The notes beneath the pieces were generated by a model. The model was not told the DNA's origin. It ran no database searches and saw nothing but the letters and a program-made list of their open reading frames with translations. A program made the position numbers and the translations under genes. From Planctomycetaceae bacterium (GTDB lineage Bacteria; Planctomycetota; Planctomycetia; Planctomycetales; Planctomycetaceae), in the NCBI GenBank assembly GCA_947476295.1, contig CANJQC010000004.1, forward strand, positions 1-64,000: 64,000 bases of DNA, in the 5' to 3' direction. Positions 5,707 to 34,169 of this stretch are shown piece after piece (the first letter of the stretch is position 1; each line of letters starts with the position of its first letter).

Positions 5707-5834
5707 ATTATCAGAAATTATCATGGGGCCAGCCATATATTGGCAGCTGTTGCGGCAGTTTGTAGAATCTGGTGGCTCCAGTCAATGGTGGGACGATTAG
5801 TGTTTCATCAGTTTCGTTCTTTGGAGCTTAGACC

Positions 5835-6465
5835 ATGGCACGTACAAATCGAGGGGATGTGTTGGCGGCGGGCGAGATTCAGGTGGTGCATTGCATCAAT
5901 CGATGCGTGCGGCGGGCCTATCTCTGCGGACAAGATCCGGTCACCGGGACTGAGTTATGAACATCGGCGGGAACTCATCCGTGAGCGGCTGGAATTTCTG
6001 GCGGGAATCATGGGGATTGAAGTTCTTGGCTATTCGGTCATGAGTGACCATTTCCACTGTATTTTACGCAGTCGATATGATGTGGTGCAGACATGGTCGG
6101 ATCAGGACGTGGCTCGGAAGTGGTGGCTGTTGTGTCCGGCTCGCAAGACGAAAGAAGGCCTTCCCGCCGATCCCACGGAGTTTGAATTGAACTCGATTCG
6201 CAGCGATACAAGAGGCCTGAAGGAAAAGCGTGTCCGGCTGTCGAGCATTTCATGGTTCATGCGGTTCCTGTCAGAGCGCGTTGCAAAAGTCGCGAATAAA
6301 CAAGACCAGTGCTCCGAGCGCTTTTGGGAGGGTCGATTTCGCGGACAAATTTTGCTGGATAGTGCCGCGATTCTGGCCTGTCTGCAGTACGTAGATTTGA
6401 ATCCCGTGCGGGCGAATATCGCCACGAGTCCTGAGTCCAGTGATTTCACAAGTGCTTCAGTTTGA
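5835..6465 (+). pseudogene. REP-associated tyrosine transposase-like (Y1_Tnp) gene, frameshifted
   Basis: Homologue of the Y1 (HUH) transposase-like proteins common in planctomycetes. The first frame starts at ATG 5835 (MARTNRGDVL) and covers 'VVHCINRCVRRAYLCG', then stops near 5957. The rest continues one frame over: 'LEFLAGIMGIEVLGYSVM', the HUH motif 'SDHFHCIL', and 'CLQYVDLNPVRANI', the conserved end of the core. A single-base insertion near 5945-5955 explains the break. The second half ends early at 6465, while relatives have a longer C-terminal tail; the next 250 bases have a degenerate continuation in other frames. Probably inactive now, but it is a plausible former mover of the palindromic repeats seen elsewhere in the window. 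Confidence 0.8.
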
Positions 6466-6702: not shown

Positions 6703-7290
6703 CGTGCCATTGATTTGTCCGGTGAGACGCAGGCCACGCTCGACATGTACGGGCCCGAAGTTTCGAAACCCGGCACATTCGCCGCCAGTGCGCTGCTGGC
6801 GCGCCGCATGGTTGAACGCGGTGTGCGAGCCGTACAGATCCTGCATCGAGGCTGGGATCAGCATGGATCGCTGCCGAGCGAAATTCGGCATCAATGCTAC
6901 GACACAGACCAGCCCTGTGCAGCGTTGCTTCAGGACCTGAAACAGCGAGGTCTGTTGCAGGATACGCTTGTGGTCTGGGGCGGAGAATTTGGCCGCACGG
7001 TATATTCACAGGGCACTTTAATGGCCACAAATTATGGCCGCGACCACCATCCTCGCTGCTTCAGTATGTGGCTGGCCGGCGGCGGTGTGAAAGGCGGCAC
7101 AATGTACGGTGAGACTGATGATTTCAGTTACAACATCATTGACAAGCCATGTCATGTGAATGACCTGAATGCAACTCTTCTGCATTGCCTTGGCATCGAC
7201 CATGAACGTTTTTCATACCGATTTCAGGGGCTGTGTCAGCGCCTGACCGGCGTGGAACCGCAACATGTGATGCAGGAGATTCTGGCATGA
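6703..7290 (+). pseudogene. DUF1501 sulfatase-like protein, C-terminal remnant
   Basis: C-terminal ~195 codons of a DUF1501 protein, a planctomycete-typical secreted family with an alkaline-phosphatase/sulfatase-like fold. The recognisable run is '[17 protein letters not shown]', '[17 protein letters not shown]', '[10 protein letters not shown]', '[17 protein letters not shown]' and '[17 protein letters not shown]'. An in-frame TGA at 6700-6702 cuts it off from any upstream coding sequence, and the Tat signal plus the first ~280 residues are absent. In planctomycetes DUF1501 genes usually pair with DUF1549/DUF1553 genes; here the partner is not adjacent, although an intact DUF1553 gene lies at the far right of the window. 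Confidence 0.8.
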
Positions 7291-7764: not shown

Positions 7765-8742
7765 ATGATCGCTCTGCCTGTTTCCACCGGCGCTGTGTTG
7801 CCGTCTGTGGGATTCGGATTCTGGAAAGTTGAAAAAAACAGCTCTGCTGAGGTGGCTCAACAGGCCATCGCTGCCGGATACCGTCATCTGGATTGTGCGT
7901 GCGATTACGGCAATGAAGTCGAAGTCGGAATTGGGATCGCTCGCGCGATTGACGCTGGCCTTTGCCAGCGTGACGACCTGTGGGTGACGTCGAAACTCTG
8001 GAACACCTATCACTCGGCAGAACATGTGAGAATGGCCTGTGAAAAATCTTTGAAAGATCTCGGGCTGCAGCAACTGGATCTGTACCTGATCCACTTTCCG
8101 ATCGCGCAGAAATATGTTCCGATTGATGTGCGTTATCCCCCCGGATGGTTCTTTGATCCTGCTGCGGCAATGCCCTGCATGCAGGAAGTTCGAGTACCGA
8201 TCAGCCAAACATGGGCGGCAATGGAGAAGCTTGTTGATGACGGTCTGGTGAAACACATCGGCATCTGCAATTTTGGAACCAGTTTGCTGCGTGACCTGTT
8301 GTCGTATGCTCGGATTCGCCCGACGGTATTGCAGGTCGAATCGCATCCGTTCCTGGTACAGGCAAAACTATTGCGATACTGCCAACAGGAAAACATTGCC
8401 TTCACCGCATTTTCACCACTCGGAGCAGCAAGTTACTACAGTCTTGGCATGGCAAGTCCGTCCGAATCATTACTCGATCATCCCATCGTGCAGTGCATCG
8501 CATTGGAGAAACACCGATCAGCCGCGCAGGTCTTGTTGCGATGGGGCGTTCAGCGCGGTACGTCCGTGATCCCCAAGACCTCCGACGTCGCGAGGATGAA
8601 AGAGAATCTTCAGCTTTTCGATTTTGAGCTCACGGAAGTCGAAATGCAGTCAATCGCTGGCTTGGATCGCCATCGTCGATTCAACGATCCCGGTGTCTTC
8701 TGCGAGTCTGCCTTTAACACGTTTTGTCCGATTTATGAATGA
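7765..8742 (+). CDS. Aldo/keto reductase (AKR2/xylose-reductase-like)
   Basis: NAD(P)H-dependent oxidoreductase of 325 residues with the (beta/alpha)8 AKR fold. The catalytic tetrad is visible: Asp and Tyr in 'DCACDYGNE', Lys in 'TSKLWN', and His in 'YLIHFP'. The cofactor-binding end 'SVIPKTSDVARMKEN' is present, as is 'GICNFGTSLLRDLL'. The YPPGWFFD-type insertion after the His strand resembles yeast and plant xylose/aldose-6-phosphate reductases more than the bacterial AKR5 group. It probably reduces an aldose or aldehyde; the substrate is not determined. The last 8 bases overlap the next gene, so the two are likely co-translated. Confidence 0.88.
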   Translation: MIALPVSTGAVLPSVGFGFWKVEKNSSAEVAQQAIAAGYRHLDCACDYGNEVEVGIGIARAIDAGLCQRDDLWVTSKLWNTYHSAEHVRMACEKSLKDLGLQQLDLYLIHFPIAQKYVPIDVRYPPGWFFDPAAAMPCMQEVRVPISQTWAAMEKLVDDGLVKHIGICNFGTSLLRDLLSYARIRPTVLQVESHPFLVQAKLLRYCQQENIAFTAFSPLGAASYYSLGMASPSESLLDHPIVQCIALEKHRSAAQVLLRWGVQRGTSVIPKTSDVARMKENLQLFDFELTEVEMQSIAGLDRHRRFNDPGVFCESAFNTFCPIYE

Positions 8743-9058
8743 ACCAAAACCACAACCTGAACAAAACCCCTATGAGGCAACTCAAGTTGCAGAGATGGCA
8801 ACATCTGTGACGGATCGCCAAAAACCTGGCACCGTTGCCGTGGCGTTTTCAGTCGTACTGGGGCTCGCGGTGGCGGTCATCGCATTCGGAGTAAGCTTTT
8901 TTGCCACCTGCGTAGGCCTGGATGGTATTGGAGCAGTGGATGTGGACAGTGCATCTGGAACCGCCTTCCTATTGCTCGTTGCGGGTCTTACAGCCGTCGC
9001 GGCCTTCGCTCTTACAGTTTGGGGATTGCTCAAGATCATGCGTGCGATGAAGAGTTGA
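8735..9058 (+). CDS. Small membrane protein with two helices
   Basis: A 107-residue protein not assignable to a known family. It has a polar, Pro/Glu-rich N-terminus (MNEPKPQPEQNPYEAT) and two membrane helices, 'VAVAFSVVLGLAVAVIAFGVS' territory and 'AFLLLVAGLTAVAAFALTVWG', with both ends predicted on the cytoplasmic side. The 'NPYEAT' opening is common in planctomycete small membrane proteins. The ATG at 8735 overlaps the stop of the aldo/keto reductase by 8 bases, which suggests translational coupling. Confidence 0.65.
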   Translation: MNEPKPQPEQNPYEATQVAEMATSVTDRQKPGTVAVAFSVVLGLAVAVIAFGVSFFATCVGLDGIGAVDVDSASGTAFLLLVAGLTAVAAFALTVWGLLKIMRAMKS

Positions 9059-9105: not shown

Positions 9106-9143
9106 CGACACTCTGTGGCGGGGATTCCCGCCACGGAGTGTCG
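9106..9143. repeat. REP-like palindrome (CCCGCCACGGAGTG type)
   Basis: Arms 9106-9122 and 9127-9143 are inverted repeats of 17 bases with one mismatch and a 4-base loop. The right arm plus the following ~17 bases recurs at 34137-34169, so this is a dispersed repeat and not just a terminator. It lies between two same-direction genes. Confidence 0.75.
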
Positions 9144-9202: not shown

Positions 9203-10744
9203 ATGACAACTTACCGCGACTACACGTTTCTGGGCACAACACAAAGCCTGTGTCCGGATTGTCTGGCTCTTGTGTCGGCGAAGGTGATTTCACGGAATGG
9301 GCGAATTTATTTTCGAAAGACATGTTTGGTACATGGTGTCCGGGAGGATTTTGTTTGCAGCGATGCGAAGTGGTTTGATCGAACAGATTACAGCCTGCCC
9401 GGCAAAGTTCCACTATCGTTCGGTATTGAACCGGATCGAGGCTGTCCGTACGACTGCGGGCTCTGCACCGAACACGAACAGCATACCTGCATCGGATTGC
9501 TGGAGATTAACTCTGCCTGCAATCTGGAATGCCCGATGTGCTTTGCCGTGAGCGGCCCCGGTGGAACTCACCTGTCGCTGGAAGATTGCAAAGCTGCGAT
9601 TGACCGCCTCGTCGAAGTCGAGGGCCAGCCGGAAATCCTGCAACTTTCCGGTGGCGAACCCACGATTCATCCGGACTTCGAAGAGATTCATCGATACGCC
9701 TGCGATCAACCGATCGATATCGTGATGATCAATACGAATGGCATTCGTCTGGCTCGCGATCGAGCGTTTCTGGAAAGTGTCGCCGAACGGAAACACCGAA
9801 CCGAAATCTATCTGCAGTTCGATACGTTTGAAGATGCGGGCTACAGGACGCTGCGAGGTGCCTCGCTGCTGGAAACGAAGCTGAAGGCCATCGAACAGCT
9901 TGGTGAAGTCGGGCTGAATACGATTCTGGTGTGTACAGTGCAGCTAGGTGTCAACGATCACGAAATCGGACGGCTCGTGGAATTTGGAATTGAACGCCCC
10001 TGGATCACGGGCGTCAGTTTTCAGCCCGCGACATATTCCGGCCGCTTCGTGCTGCCGGAGACGCTGGAAAAACGTATCACGTTTCCTGATGTGATCAAAG
10101 CTGTAGTGGAGCAATCGACACAGTGGCAGGAAACCGACTTCGCTCCGCTGCCGTGTGCTCATCCGAACGGACATACGCTGTCGTATGCATATCGATCCGG
10201 CAGTCGAGTCACACCGCTGGCACGTTTTGTGGATCTCGAGAAGCATCTGGATCTGCTGTCGGGCCGGATCACGTTCAATCGCGAACGAGCACGAGAACTG
10301 ATCGGTCAGTATCTGTCTCGCCAGGCCTGTGGTGGCGGGGGCGGGGATTGTGGTTGCGGTGAAGTGTCCCAGGGAATTTCTCTGAGTCCGCGCAACGGGC
10401 AAGCGGGATCTGCATCGTCGCTTGAGGTGCTGAGCCCGACTTCGTCAGGTCTGCCATCAGATCTATCGTCGGAAGTCATGTCAGACGCAGTGCAGTTCTT
10501 CACTCGTGCTTTGACGGAAAGCCTGAATCCGCGCGACATGTTCCGCATCACGACGACGTCGTTTATGGATGCTTACAATTTCGATGTGCGACAACTGATG
10601 AAGGAATGTGTTCACTTTGTGCTGCCGAGCGGGCATCTTGTGCCATTCTCAGCGTACAACGTGCTGTATCGCAACGGCCATGTGCAACTGCCACCGTTGA
10701 TTCAAAAATCGGGGGCGAGGCAACGTGCCGTGTCTGAAATGTAG
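9203..10744 (+). CDS. Radical SAM protein of the Tes/MJ0619-like type
   Basis: A 513-residue radical SAM enzyme. The N-terminus has a zinc-knuckle-like 'LCPDCLALV...RKTCLVHG' segment. It is followed by the CxxxxCGLC box 'CPYDCGLC', the radical SAM signature 'CNLECPMC' (CxxxCxxC, binds the 4Fe-4S cluster and SAM) and the 'LQLSGGEPT' motif. A Cys/Gly-rich linker 'CGGGGGDCGCG' follows at about residue 376. The C-terminus 'MDAYNFDVRQLMKECVHF...VPFSAYNVLYR' has the YNFD...K-x-C-x-H...YN-x-x-Y-R pattern seen in the MJ0619/tetraether lipid synthase group. Members methylate pterins or couple lipid tails. The start has a GAGGAAA box nine bases upstream. The exact reaction here is not provable from sequence. 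Confidence 0.8.
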   Translation: MTTYRDYTFLGTTQSLCPDCLALVSAKVISRNGRIYFRKTCLVHGVREDFVCSDAKWFDRTDYSLPGKVPLSFGIEPDRGCPYDCGLCTEHEQHTCIGLLEINSACNLECPMCFAVSGPGGTHLSLEDCKAAIDRLVEVEGQPEILQLSGGEPTIHPDFEEIHRYACDQPIDIVMINTNGIRLARDRAFLESVAERKHRTEIYLQFDTFEDAGYRTLRGASLLETKLKAIEQLGEVGLNTILVCTVQLGVNDHEIGRLVEFGIERPWITGVSFQPATYSGRFVLPETLEKRITFPDVIKAVVEQSTQWQETDFAPLPCAHPNGHTLSYAYRSGSRVTPLARFVDLEKHLDLLSGRITFNRERARELIGQYLSRQACGGGGGDCGCGEVSQGISLSPRNGQAGSASSLEVLSPTSSGLPSDLSSEVMSDAVQFFTRALTESLNPRDMFRITTTSFMDAYNFDVRQLMKECVHFVLPSGHLVPFSAYNVLYRNGHVQLPPLIQKSGARQRAVSEM

Positions 10745-10878
10745 CCATCACGCTCCGCCGTGATGAGCCTGGGCCAATTGACGTACATCAACCAAAAAAC
10801 GTCGCTAAGATCATTCCCTTCGCAATGCGATGTCCCTACCCCAATCGTTTTTTAGTTTCACATCCGGAAAAATCACCG

Positions 10879-11199
10879 ATGGAGATTTCATGCGAAGCTG
10901 TTCATGCGAAGCGACTTCGCGGCGACTCATTTGTGCTGTTGGATTGTCGCGAGCAGGACGAATGGGACTATTGCCACATTGACGGAGCGATGCTGATTCC
11001 GATGAGCGACCTGCAATCGCGAGCGGCGGAACTGGAGTCGTTTCGAGCCTCACAAATCATCGTCTACTGCCATCACGGCGTGCGCAGTCTGCGCGTCGCA
11101 ATGTGGCTGCAACAACAGGGTTTCAACCACACAGCCAGCATGTCTGGTGGAATCGAAGAATGGTCACTGAATGTTGATTCAGACGTACCGCGATACTAA
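10879..11199 (+). CDS. Rhodanese-like sulfurtransferase domain protein
   Basis: Single-domain rhodanese of 106 residues, about the size of GlpE. The active-site loop is 'YCHHGVRS', with the catalytic Cys carrying a persulfide. The CH2A-like 'LLDCREQDEWDYCHIDGAMLIPM' region and the C-terminal 'MSGGIEEW' are typical. The start at 10879 (MEISCEAV) matches the usual domain start; an in-frame ATG at 10825 would add 18 unrelated residues. It follows the radical SAM gene in the same direction with a 134-base gap, so functional linkage is possible but not shown. Confidence 0.85.
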   Translation: MEISCEAVHAKRLRGDSFVLLDCREQDEWDYCHIDGAMLIPMSDLQSRAAELESFRASQIIVYCHHGVRSLRVAMWLQQQGFNHTASMSGGIEEWSLNVDSDVPRY

Positions 11200-34136: not shown

Positions 34137-34169
34137 CCCGCCACGGAGTGACGGGGCACATTGAGTCGC
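34137..34169. repeat. Half-copy of the CCCGCCACGGAGTG dispersed repeat
   Basis: Matches the right arm and flank of the palindrome at 9106-9143 with few differences (34137-34169 against 9127-9160). The left arm is missing. It lies in the gap after the LamG gene, close to the end of the oxidoreductase. Confidence 0.65.

Follow-up and report, generated by a model that had tools for sequence, protein, structure and literature searches.

The 64,000-nt stretch of Planctomycetaceae DNA analysed here (the window) carries, at positions 9203–10744 of the forward strand, an ATG-initiated gene for a 513-aa Tes-fold, TrsS-like radical SAM (rSAM) protein (Pfam Radical_SAM 1.4e-21; PF04055, 77.8 bits against a gathering score of 29.5), which is expected to form a radical from SAM because it belongs to the radical SAM superfamily. 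Tes is the archaeal enzyme that joins lipid tails. The protein begins with a rubredoxin-like (HMPTM) zinc-ribbon site (9227–9361, aa 9–53; C17, C20, C41 and H44; PF23545 1.5e-16), followed by an N-terminal auxiliary [4Fe4S] site (9443–9484; C81, C85 and C88 plus H91/H94, aligned to C73, C77, C80 and a His of the archaeal enzyme MjTes) and by the radical SAM CX3CX2C motif (9518–9541; C106, C110, C113). The C-terminal half contains a Cys in a "PC.HP" context (C318, 10154–10156), a Cys/Gly-rich loop CGGGGGDCGCG (10328–10360, aa 376–386, with Cys 376, 383 and 385) and the region aligned to MjTes C438–C470 (10544–10660), all encoded on the forward strand. A sequence-only reading of this gene had pointed to an N-terminal Cys knuckle, a CPYDCGLC box, a CxxxCxxC cluster and a YNFD...AYN tail, and all of these are indeed present in the ORF, together with the HMPTM ribbon. 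Comparison with three close relatives yields dN/dS values of 0.05–0.07, i.e. strong purifying selection, which argues that the gene is not a chance ORF. Decay of the gene in the window lineage was also considered, and is ruled out by the same values.

Upstream, on the same strand, lies a gene for a small, 107-aa membrane protein with two predicted TM helices (8735–9058), whose invariant Cys (C59, codon 8909–8911) is located at the end of TM1 that is predicted to face outward. Other neighbors are a rhodanese-domain gene downstream (10825–11199, forward strand; PF00581) and aldo-keto reductases. The window genome measures 5.99 Mb in 252 contigs and is 98.97% complete; its close relatives in the genome collection are labeled as Planctomycetaceae (Planctomycetota). 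We searched 59 genomes, among them that of the window, and 20 of these gave strong matches to the rSAM protein; 80 homologous loci were kept from the genome-contig search. Viral contigs scanned with the rSAM profile revealed distant rSAM proteins only.

An AlphaFold model of the window protein (mean pLDDT 72.9, pTM 0.77), for which the input alignment consisted of the genome loci only, identified GDGT-MAS (MjTes, MJ0619; 7TOM/7TOL) as the best structural match, with E 1e-32, TM scores of 0.69/0.71 and about 520 aligned columns. The next structure in the fold search reached E 4e-9, and these far weaker matches include RiPP maturases (e.g. SkfB). GDGT-MAS is also the nearest solved structure by sequence (1.7e-72, or 8e-120 using the family profile). 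As modeled, and at moderate model quality, the window protein has the Tes fold; the kinship with the MJ0619/Tes group that had been proposed from the sequence is borne out by a fold match over the whole chain and by the metal sites discussed below. Among the curated NCBIfam families, TrsS is the best model (NF045646, 319.8 bits vs a cut-off of 490, aa 12–492) and scores above Tes (NF045702, 272.7 bits vs a cut-off of 450), with both values under the respective cut-offs. Three archaeal controls score above the Tes threshold; none of 294 Planctomycetota genomes does.

We compared the metal ligands with the sites of MjTes as described in PMC9433317. Three of the four MjTes sites are kept in the ligand alignment: the rubredoxin site C17-X2-C20-X20-C41-X2-H44, with spacing exactly as in MjTes (C9X2C12X20C33X2H36), the N-terminal cluster, whose residues C81, C85, C88 and H91/H94 are invariant in our alignment A3, and the radical SAM cluster. 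The FMDAYNFD motif and the C-terminal YN.L.R region are shared as well. The remaining site differs. The C-terminal [Fe4S4] cluster of MjTes bears a carbon-sulfur intermediate and has Met439 as a labile ligand (PMC9433317); when all five cysteines of the C-terminal half (C338, C438, C455, C456, C470) were compared, the window protein was found to keep only one, C456 (C469). C438, C455 and C470 are replaced by T451, E468 and S483, and C338 by G323, the latter in a local alignment that is plausible though not as certain. Since only the C456 counterpart remains, an MjTes-type C-terminal [Fe4S4] cluster cannot form from the same ligands. Met439 and Tyr459, reported as invariant among 1000 archaeal homologs, are replaced by Thr452 and Phe472; the MjTes variants M439A and Y459F/L retain activity (PMC9433317), and therefore these two residues alone do not decide Tes function. 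The suggestion of a true functional homolog of Tes, for which the sequence-only reading had taken absence of the auxiliary cluster ligands as contrary evidence, is thus not upheld: the C-terminal ligands are missing, the N-terminal auxiliary ligands are present, and the curated score falls short (273 vs 450 bits).

Deeper planctomycete relatives retain the PNC, CC and PFC motifs of this region, so these three cysteines have been lost specifically in the subclade of the window. C318, a conserved Cys that the window protein has of its own, is invariant in the bacterial group, as is C469 (alignment A2, 24 sequences). Judging from these residues, C318, C469 and a Cys of the Cys/Gly-rich loop could hold another cluster. 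The loop itself, singled out earlier as an unusual insertion near residue 376, is real and variable: near relatives have CGGGDCGC, others CGLANA, CSDCHD or CCAGGDCG, and most of it falls within the segment 377–419 modeled with pLDDT below 50. We considered it as a conserved new metal site and rejected this idea, as the number and spacing of Cys residues vary in an indel-prone, partly disordered loop; the window subclade mostly retains at least one Cys there.

The maximum-likelihood tree groups the window protein with sequences from planctomycetes, Actinomycetota and Persicobacter; MjTes and the halophile copies fall outside this bacterial branch with 97/91 support, and the window protein does not cluster with the archaeal Tes. 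The tree includes one archaeal Tes (MjTes) and has long branches, so we regard the placement as moderate evidence. As further archaeal sequences, the plasmids supplied only methyltransferase-linked halophile copies. In four loci from haloarchaeal plasmids (L158, L161, L193, L194) and in one from a plasmid of M. vanbaalenii (L156) the related rSAM gene is followed by a methyltransferase gene, and some of these loci contain peroxiredoxin/DUF547 or CcdA/disulfide oxidoreductase genes nearby. Such methyltransferase-linked loci are a second, different type of module.

Unlike GDGT-MAS, the bacterial branch is genetically bound to an integral membrane enzyme of the Lgt family that keeps the two essential arginines. 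The Lgt-like protein is recognized by PF01790 (2.9e-28; 99.3 bits vs a gathering score of 24.9), and the profile of these proteins matches E. coli Lgt (5AZB) at 1.8e-25. They retain the equivalents of R143 (the Arg of the GR motif), R239 and E243 as well as the HP.QLYE region; both arginines, which are essential in E. coli Lgt (PMC4728403), are invariant. In contrast to E. coli Lgt, they are smaller, score far under the NCBIfam Lgt cut-offs, lack the His of the HGG motif and have Cys in place of N146; because of the last two differences, their acceptor may differ from that of Lgt. The housekeeping Lgt encoded in the same genomes is a paralog of these proteins. The Lgt-like gene is found beside the rSAM gene in 62 of the 80 loci, directly downstream, always on the same strand and with a median gap of 12.5 nt; in the far clades it is usually located upstream.

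The two genes also co-occur across genomes. Among the 59 genomes, the Lgt-like gene is present in 19 of the 20 with the rSAM gene and in none of the 39 without it (Fisher 1.4e-14, shared ancestry ignored); four genomes (G003, G006, G009, G016) carry the two unlinked. Among the 294 Planctomycetota genomes, where Lgt-like proteins were called by a score gap (at least 153 bits vs about 70–120 for other Lgt matches) and a split gene in G137 was scored as absent, it is found in 28 of 39 with a Tes-like gene, being absent from the other 11, vs 1 of 255 without one (Fisher 4e-29, again ignoring shared ancestry). Both positions were compared in 27 genomes, of which 25 have the two genes side by side, and records of the plasmid collection show the pair also in Persicobacter, Nonomuraea, M. 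avium and M. branderi. Three genomes (G073, G154, G216; e.g. loci L134 and L152) contain 4–5 Tes-like rSAM paralogs each with no clear Lgt-like partner, and represent a separate expansion.

The third recurrent element is the small membrane protein. At least one small TM ORF precedes the rSAM gene in 61 of 73 near-clade loci, often as two or three in tandem and not all homologous to each other; by the criterion used, none was detected upstream in the remaining 12. Roughly half of the near-clade loci have a gene similar to that of the window upstream of the rSAM gene. The near-clade proteins diverge fast, and the sole fully invariant column of their alignment is the Cys (37 of 37). Lysine and arginine are richer on the N-terminal side of the helix in 48 of 49 informative cases, near-clade and far-clade proteins taken together, so the positive-inside rule predicts that the Cys faces outside. 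Lgt meets its acceptor Cys at the outer end of an in-to-out helix. The far clades have comparable small proteins, with a Cys and a short tail at the end of the last helix, and we found none of them on the opposite strand; in one locus (L138, G190:C30) five such proteins are encoded in tandem directly downstream of the rSAM and Lgt-like genes, in what looks like an array of substrates. For the mycobacterial small protein, matches are confined to 3 of 72,556 plasmid records, namely those with the rSAM and Lgt-like genes, and second Lgt-like copies, which in two genomes occur with no rSAM gene nearby, are again preceded by a TM-Cys protein. As a control, about 40% of small ORFs with a C-terminal TM helix in these loci, the module's own proteins included, have a late Cys; for this reason the Cys evidence is weaker outside the near clade, and more weight falls on the conservation in the near clade and on the tandem arrays. 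A short TM-Cys profile, of little power, gave three matches in the test loci, all upstream and on the same strand, and none elsewhere. In 23 near-clade loci (including L012, L013, L015, L023, L199 and L200) the small TM-Cys gene is itself preceded by a gene for a conserved membrane protein of about 220–250 aa without a Pfam match.

We tentatively propose, at somewhat less than an even chance, that the window gene supplies the radical SAM enzyme of a module, conserved in bacteria, that modifies membrane lipids or lipoproteins; a role in lipid modification is favored because the partner belongs to the Lgt family. In such a module the Lgt-like enzyme would take a diacylglyceryl group, or a related glyceryl-lipid one, from phosphatidylglycerol and attach it to the outward-facing Cys of the small protein, whose helix would stay uncleaved, and the rSAM enzyme would use a 5'-deoxyadenosyl radical on the cytosolic side to functionalize or couple lipid tails, or to modify the small protein. 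Candidate chemistries for the rSAM step include coupling, sulfur insertion, methylation or others. A bolder version, which we consider doubtful, would be a so far undescribed system for lipidation of membrane proteins in Planctomycetota, Bacteroidota and Actinomycetota, in which the Lgt-family enzyme adds a diacylglyceryl group to the Cys of the uncleaved helix and the Tes-fold rSAM enzyme then rebuilds or cross-couples the tails, so that the lipoproteins would carry unusual anchors that may span the membrane.

Three other explanations have to be weighed against the proposed module. The TrsS score, the best of any NCBIfam model and nearly full-length, together with the methyltransferase and redox genes that adjoin the distant relatives in haloarchaea and M. 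vanbaalenii, could indicate a TrsS-type enzyme, i.e. a radical SAM maturase or modifier of small molecules that works elsewhere with a methyltransferase and does not act on lipids. We find this rather unlikely, as 320 bits is far under the cut-off, the conserved neighbors include no methyltransferase (nor does the window, by a neighborhood test that we derived from the distant TrsS-like relatives and not from a published definition), and the consistent partner is the Lgt-family enzyme. A further difference from TrsS, a radical SAM (seleno)protein, is that the window gene has no in-frame stop suggestive of selenocysteine. The tandem arrangement and fast evolution of the small ORFs beside the rSAM gene, and the presence of SkfB-type RiPP maturases among the weaker fold matches, would also fit a peptide-modifying enzyme with the small TM proteins as RiPP-like substrates and the Lgt-like protein in a secondary lipidation or export step. 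Such an assignment seems quite unlikely to us: Pfam reports no SPASM or peptide-recognition domain, small proteins are found as well next to Lgt-like copies that have no rSAM gene nearby, and the closest fold by far is that of a lipid enzyme.

That same fold match over the full length, the retained radical SAM, rubredoxin and N-terminal cluster ligands, and the lipid-handling partner raise the question of a genuinely Tes-like activity, by which the tail ends of bacterial lipids would be coupled into membrane-spanning lipids of the diabolic-acid or brGDGT type, with the Lgt-like enzyme supplying or reshaping diacylglycerol. Bacterial Tes homologs have been proposed for brGDGTs, as a putative function (PMC8941075), and planctomycetes have been flagged in this respect (PMC11868695). 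Against this stand the loss of the C-terminal ligands other than the C456 counterpart, the Met439 and Tyr459 replacements, the sub-threshold scores in every Planctomycetota genome examined, and the fact that the published bacterial synthase of membrane-spanning lipids is Mss, which shares the catalytic architecture of Tes, with ether bonds made by Ger (PMC13274423). We regard Tes-like coupling as improbable.

The existence of Tes homologs in Planctomycetota is already published and not new: one was reported in 110 of 684 Black Sea planctomycete MAGs (PMC11868695). In the open-licence literature that we searched we found no paper linking Tes homologs or radical SAM proteins with an Lgt homolog or with TM-Cys proteins, and no described Tes pathway that contains an Lgt-like enzyme or small TM-Cys proteins. 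Surveys count bacterial Tes homologs as possible evidence of producers of brGDGTs or membrane-spanning lipids. A large planctomycete group of such matches lacks the ligands of the Tes C-terminal cluster, the window subclade most of all; because of these missing ligands and the association with Lgt-like and small Cys proteins, we suggest that this group be left out of counts of tetraether capacity until there is proof. The lipid- or lipoprotein-modifying module offers a candidate role for these homologs, with named genes in sequenced species, among them the isolates Rhodopirellula baltica (L077), Lacipirellula limnantheis (L016) and Botrimarina colliarenosi (L047); in the first two, which are cultured, the module is intact.

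The window itself is an exception to the pairing of genes. The rSAM gene and the small TM-Cys protein are intact, no Lgt-like match was found within the window, and the rhodanese-domain gene occupies the place that the Lgt-like gene has in relatives. Apart from the housekeeping Lgt, all that the genome as a whole retains is an Lgt-like remnant of 35 aa that contains a stop and lies on another contig; the Lgt-like gene seems to have been lost. The remnant may mark the former site of the gene or be a fragment carried by a repeat; no flanks are shared between its site and the unlinked Lgt-like sites of four relatives. Since the rSAM gene is under strong purifying selection in a genome without an intact Lgt-like gene, the enzyme can be useful without this partner; the corresponding step could be carried out by another enzyme, or not at all. 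A 90-bp stretch (6769–6859 of L103, G000:C1:132770) shares 80–87% identity with the beginning of the Lgt-like gene in relatives and is located in an unrelated context, near short repeats common to L003.

Other elements of the window include a near-perfect palindrome (GACACTCTGTGGCGGG...CCCGCCACGGAGTGTC) at 9107–9142, in the gap that separates the small TM gene from the rSAM gene; it may act as a terminator or represent a REP-like element, and a partial second copy is found at 34137–34152. Farther upstream, at 5740–6465 and 6715–7290, there is an ORF resembling a REP-associated tyrosine transposase (HFHCILRS), located just upstream of a DUF1501 ORF; the DUF1501 gene looks truncated, as its match covers only positions 208–390 of the 390 in the profile.
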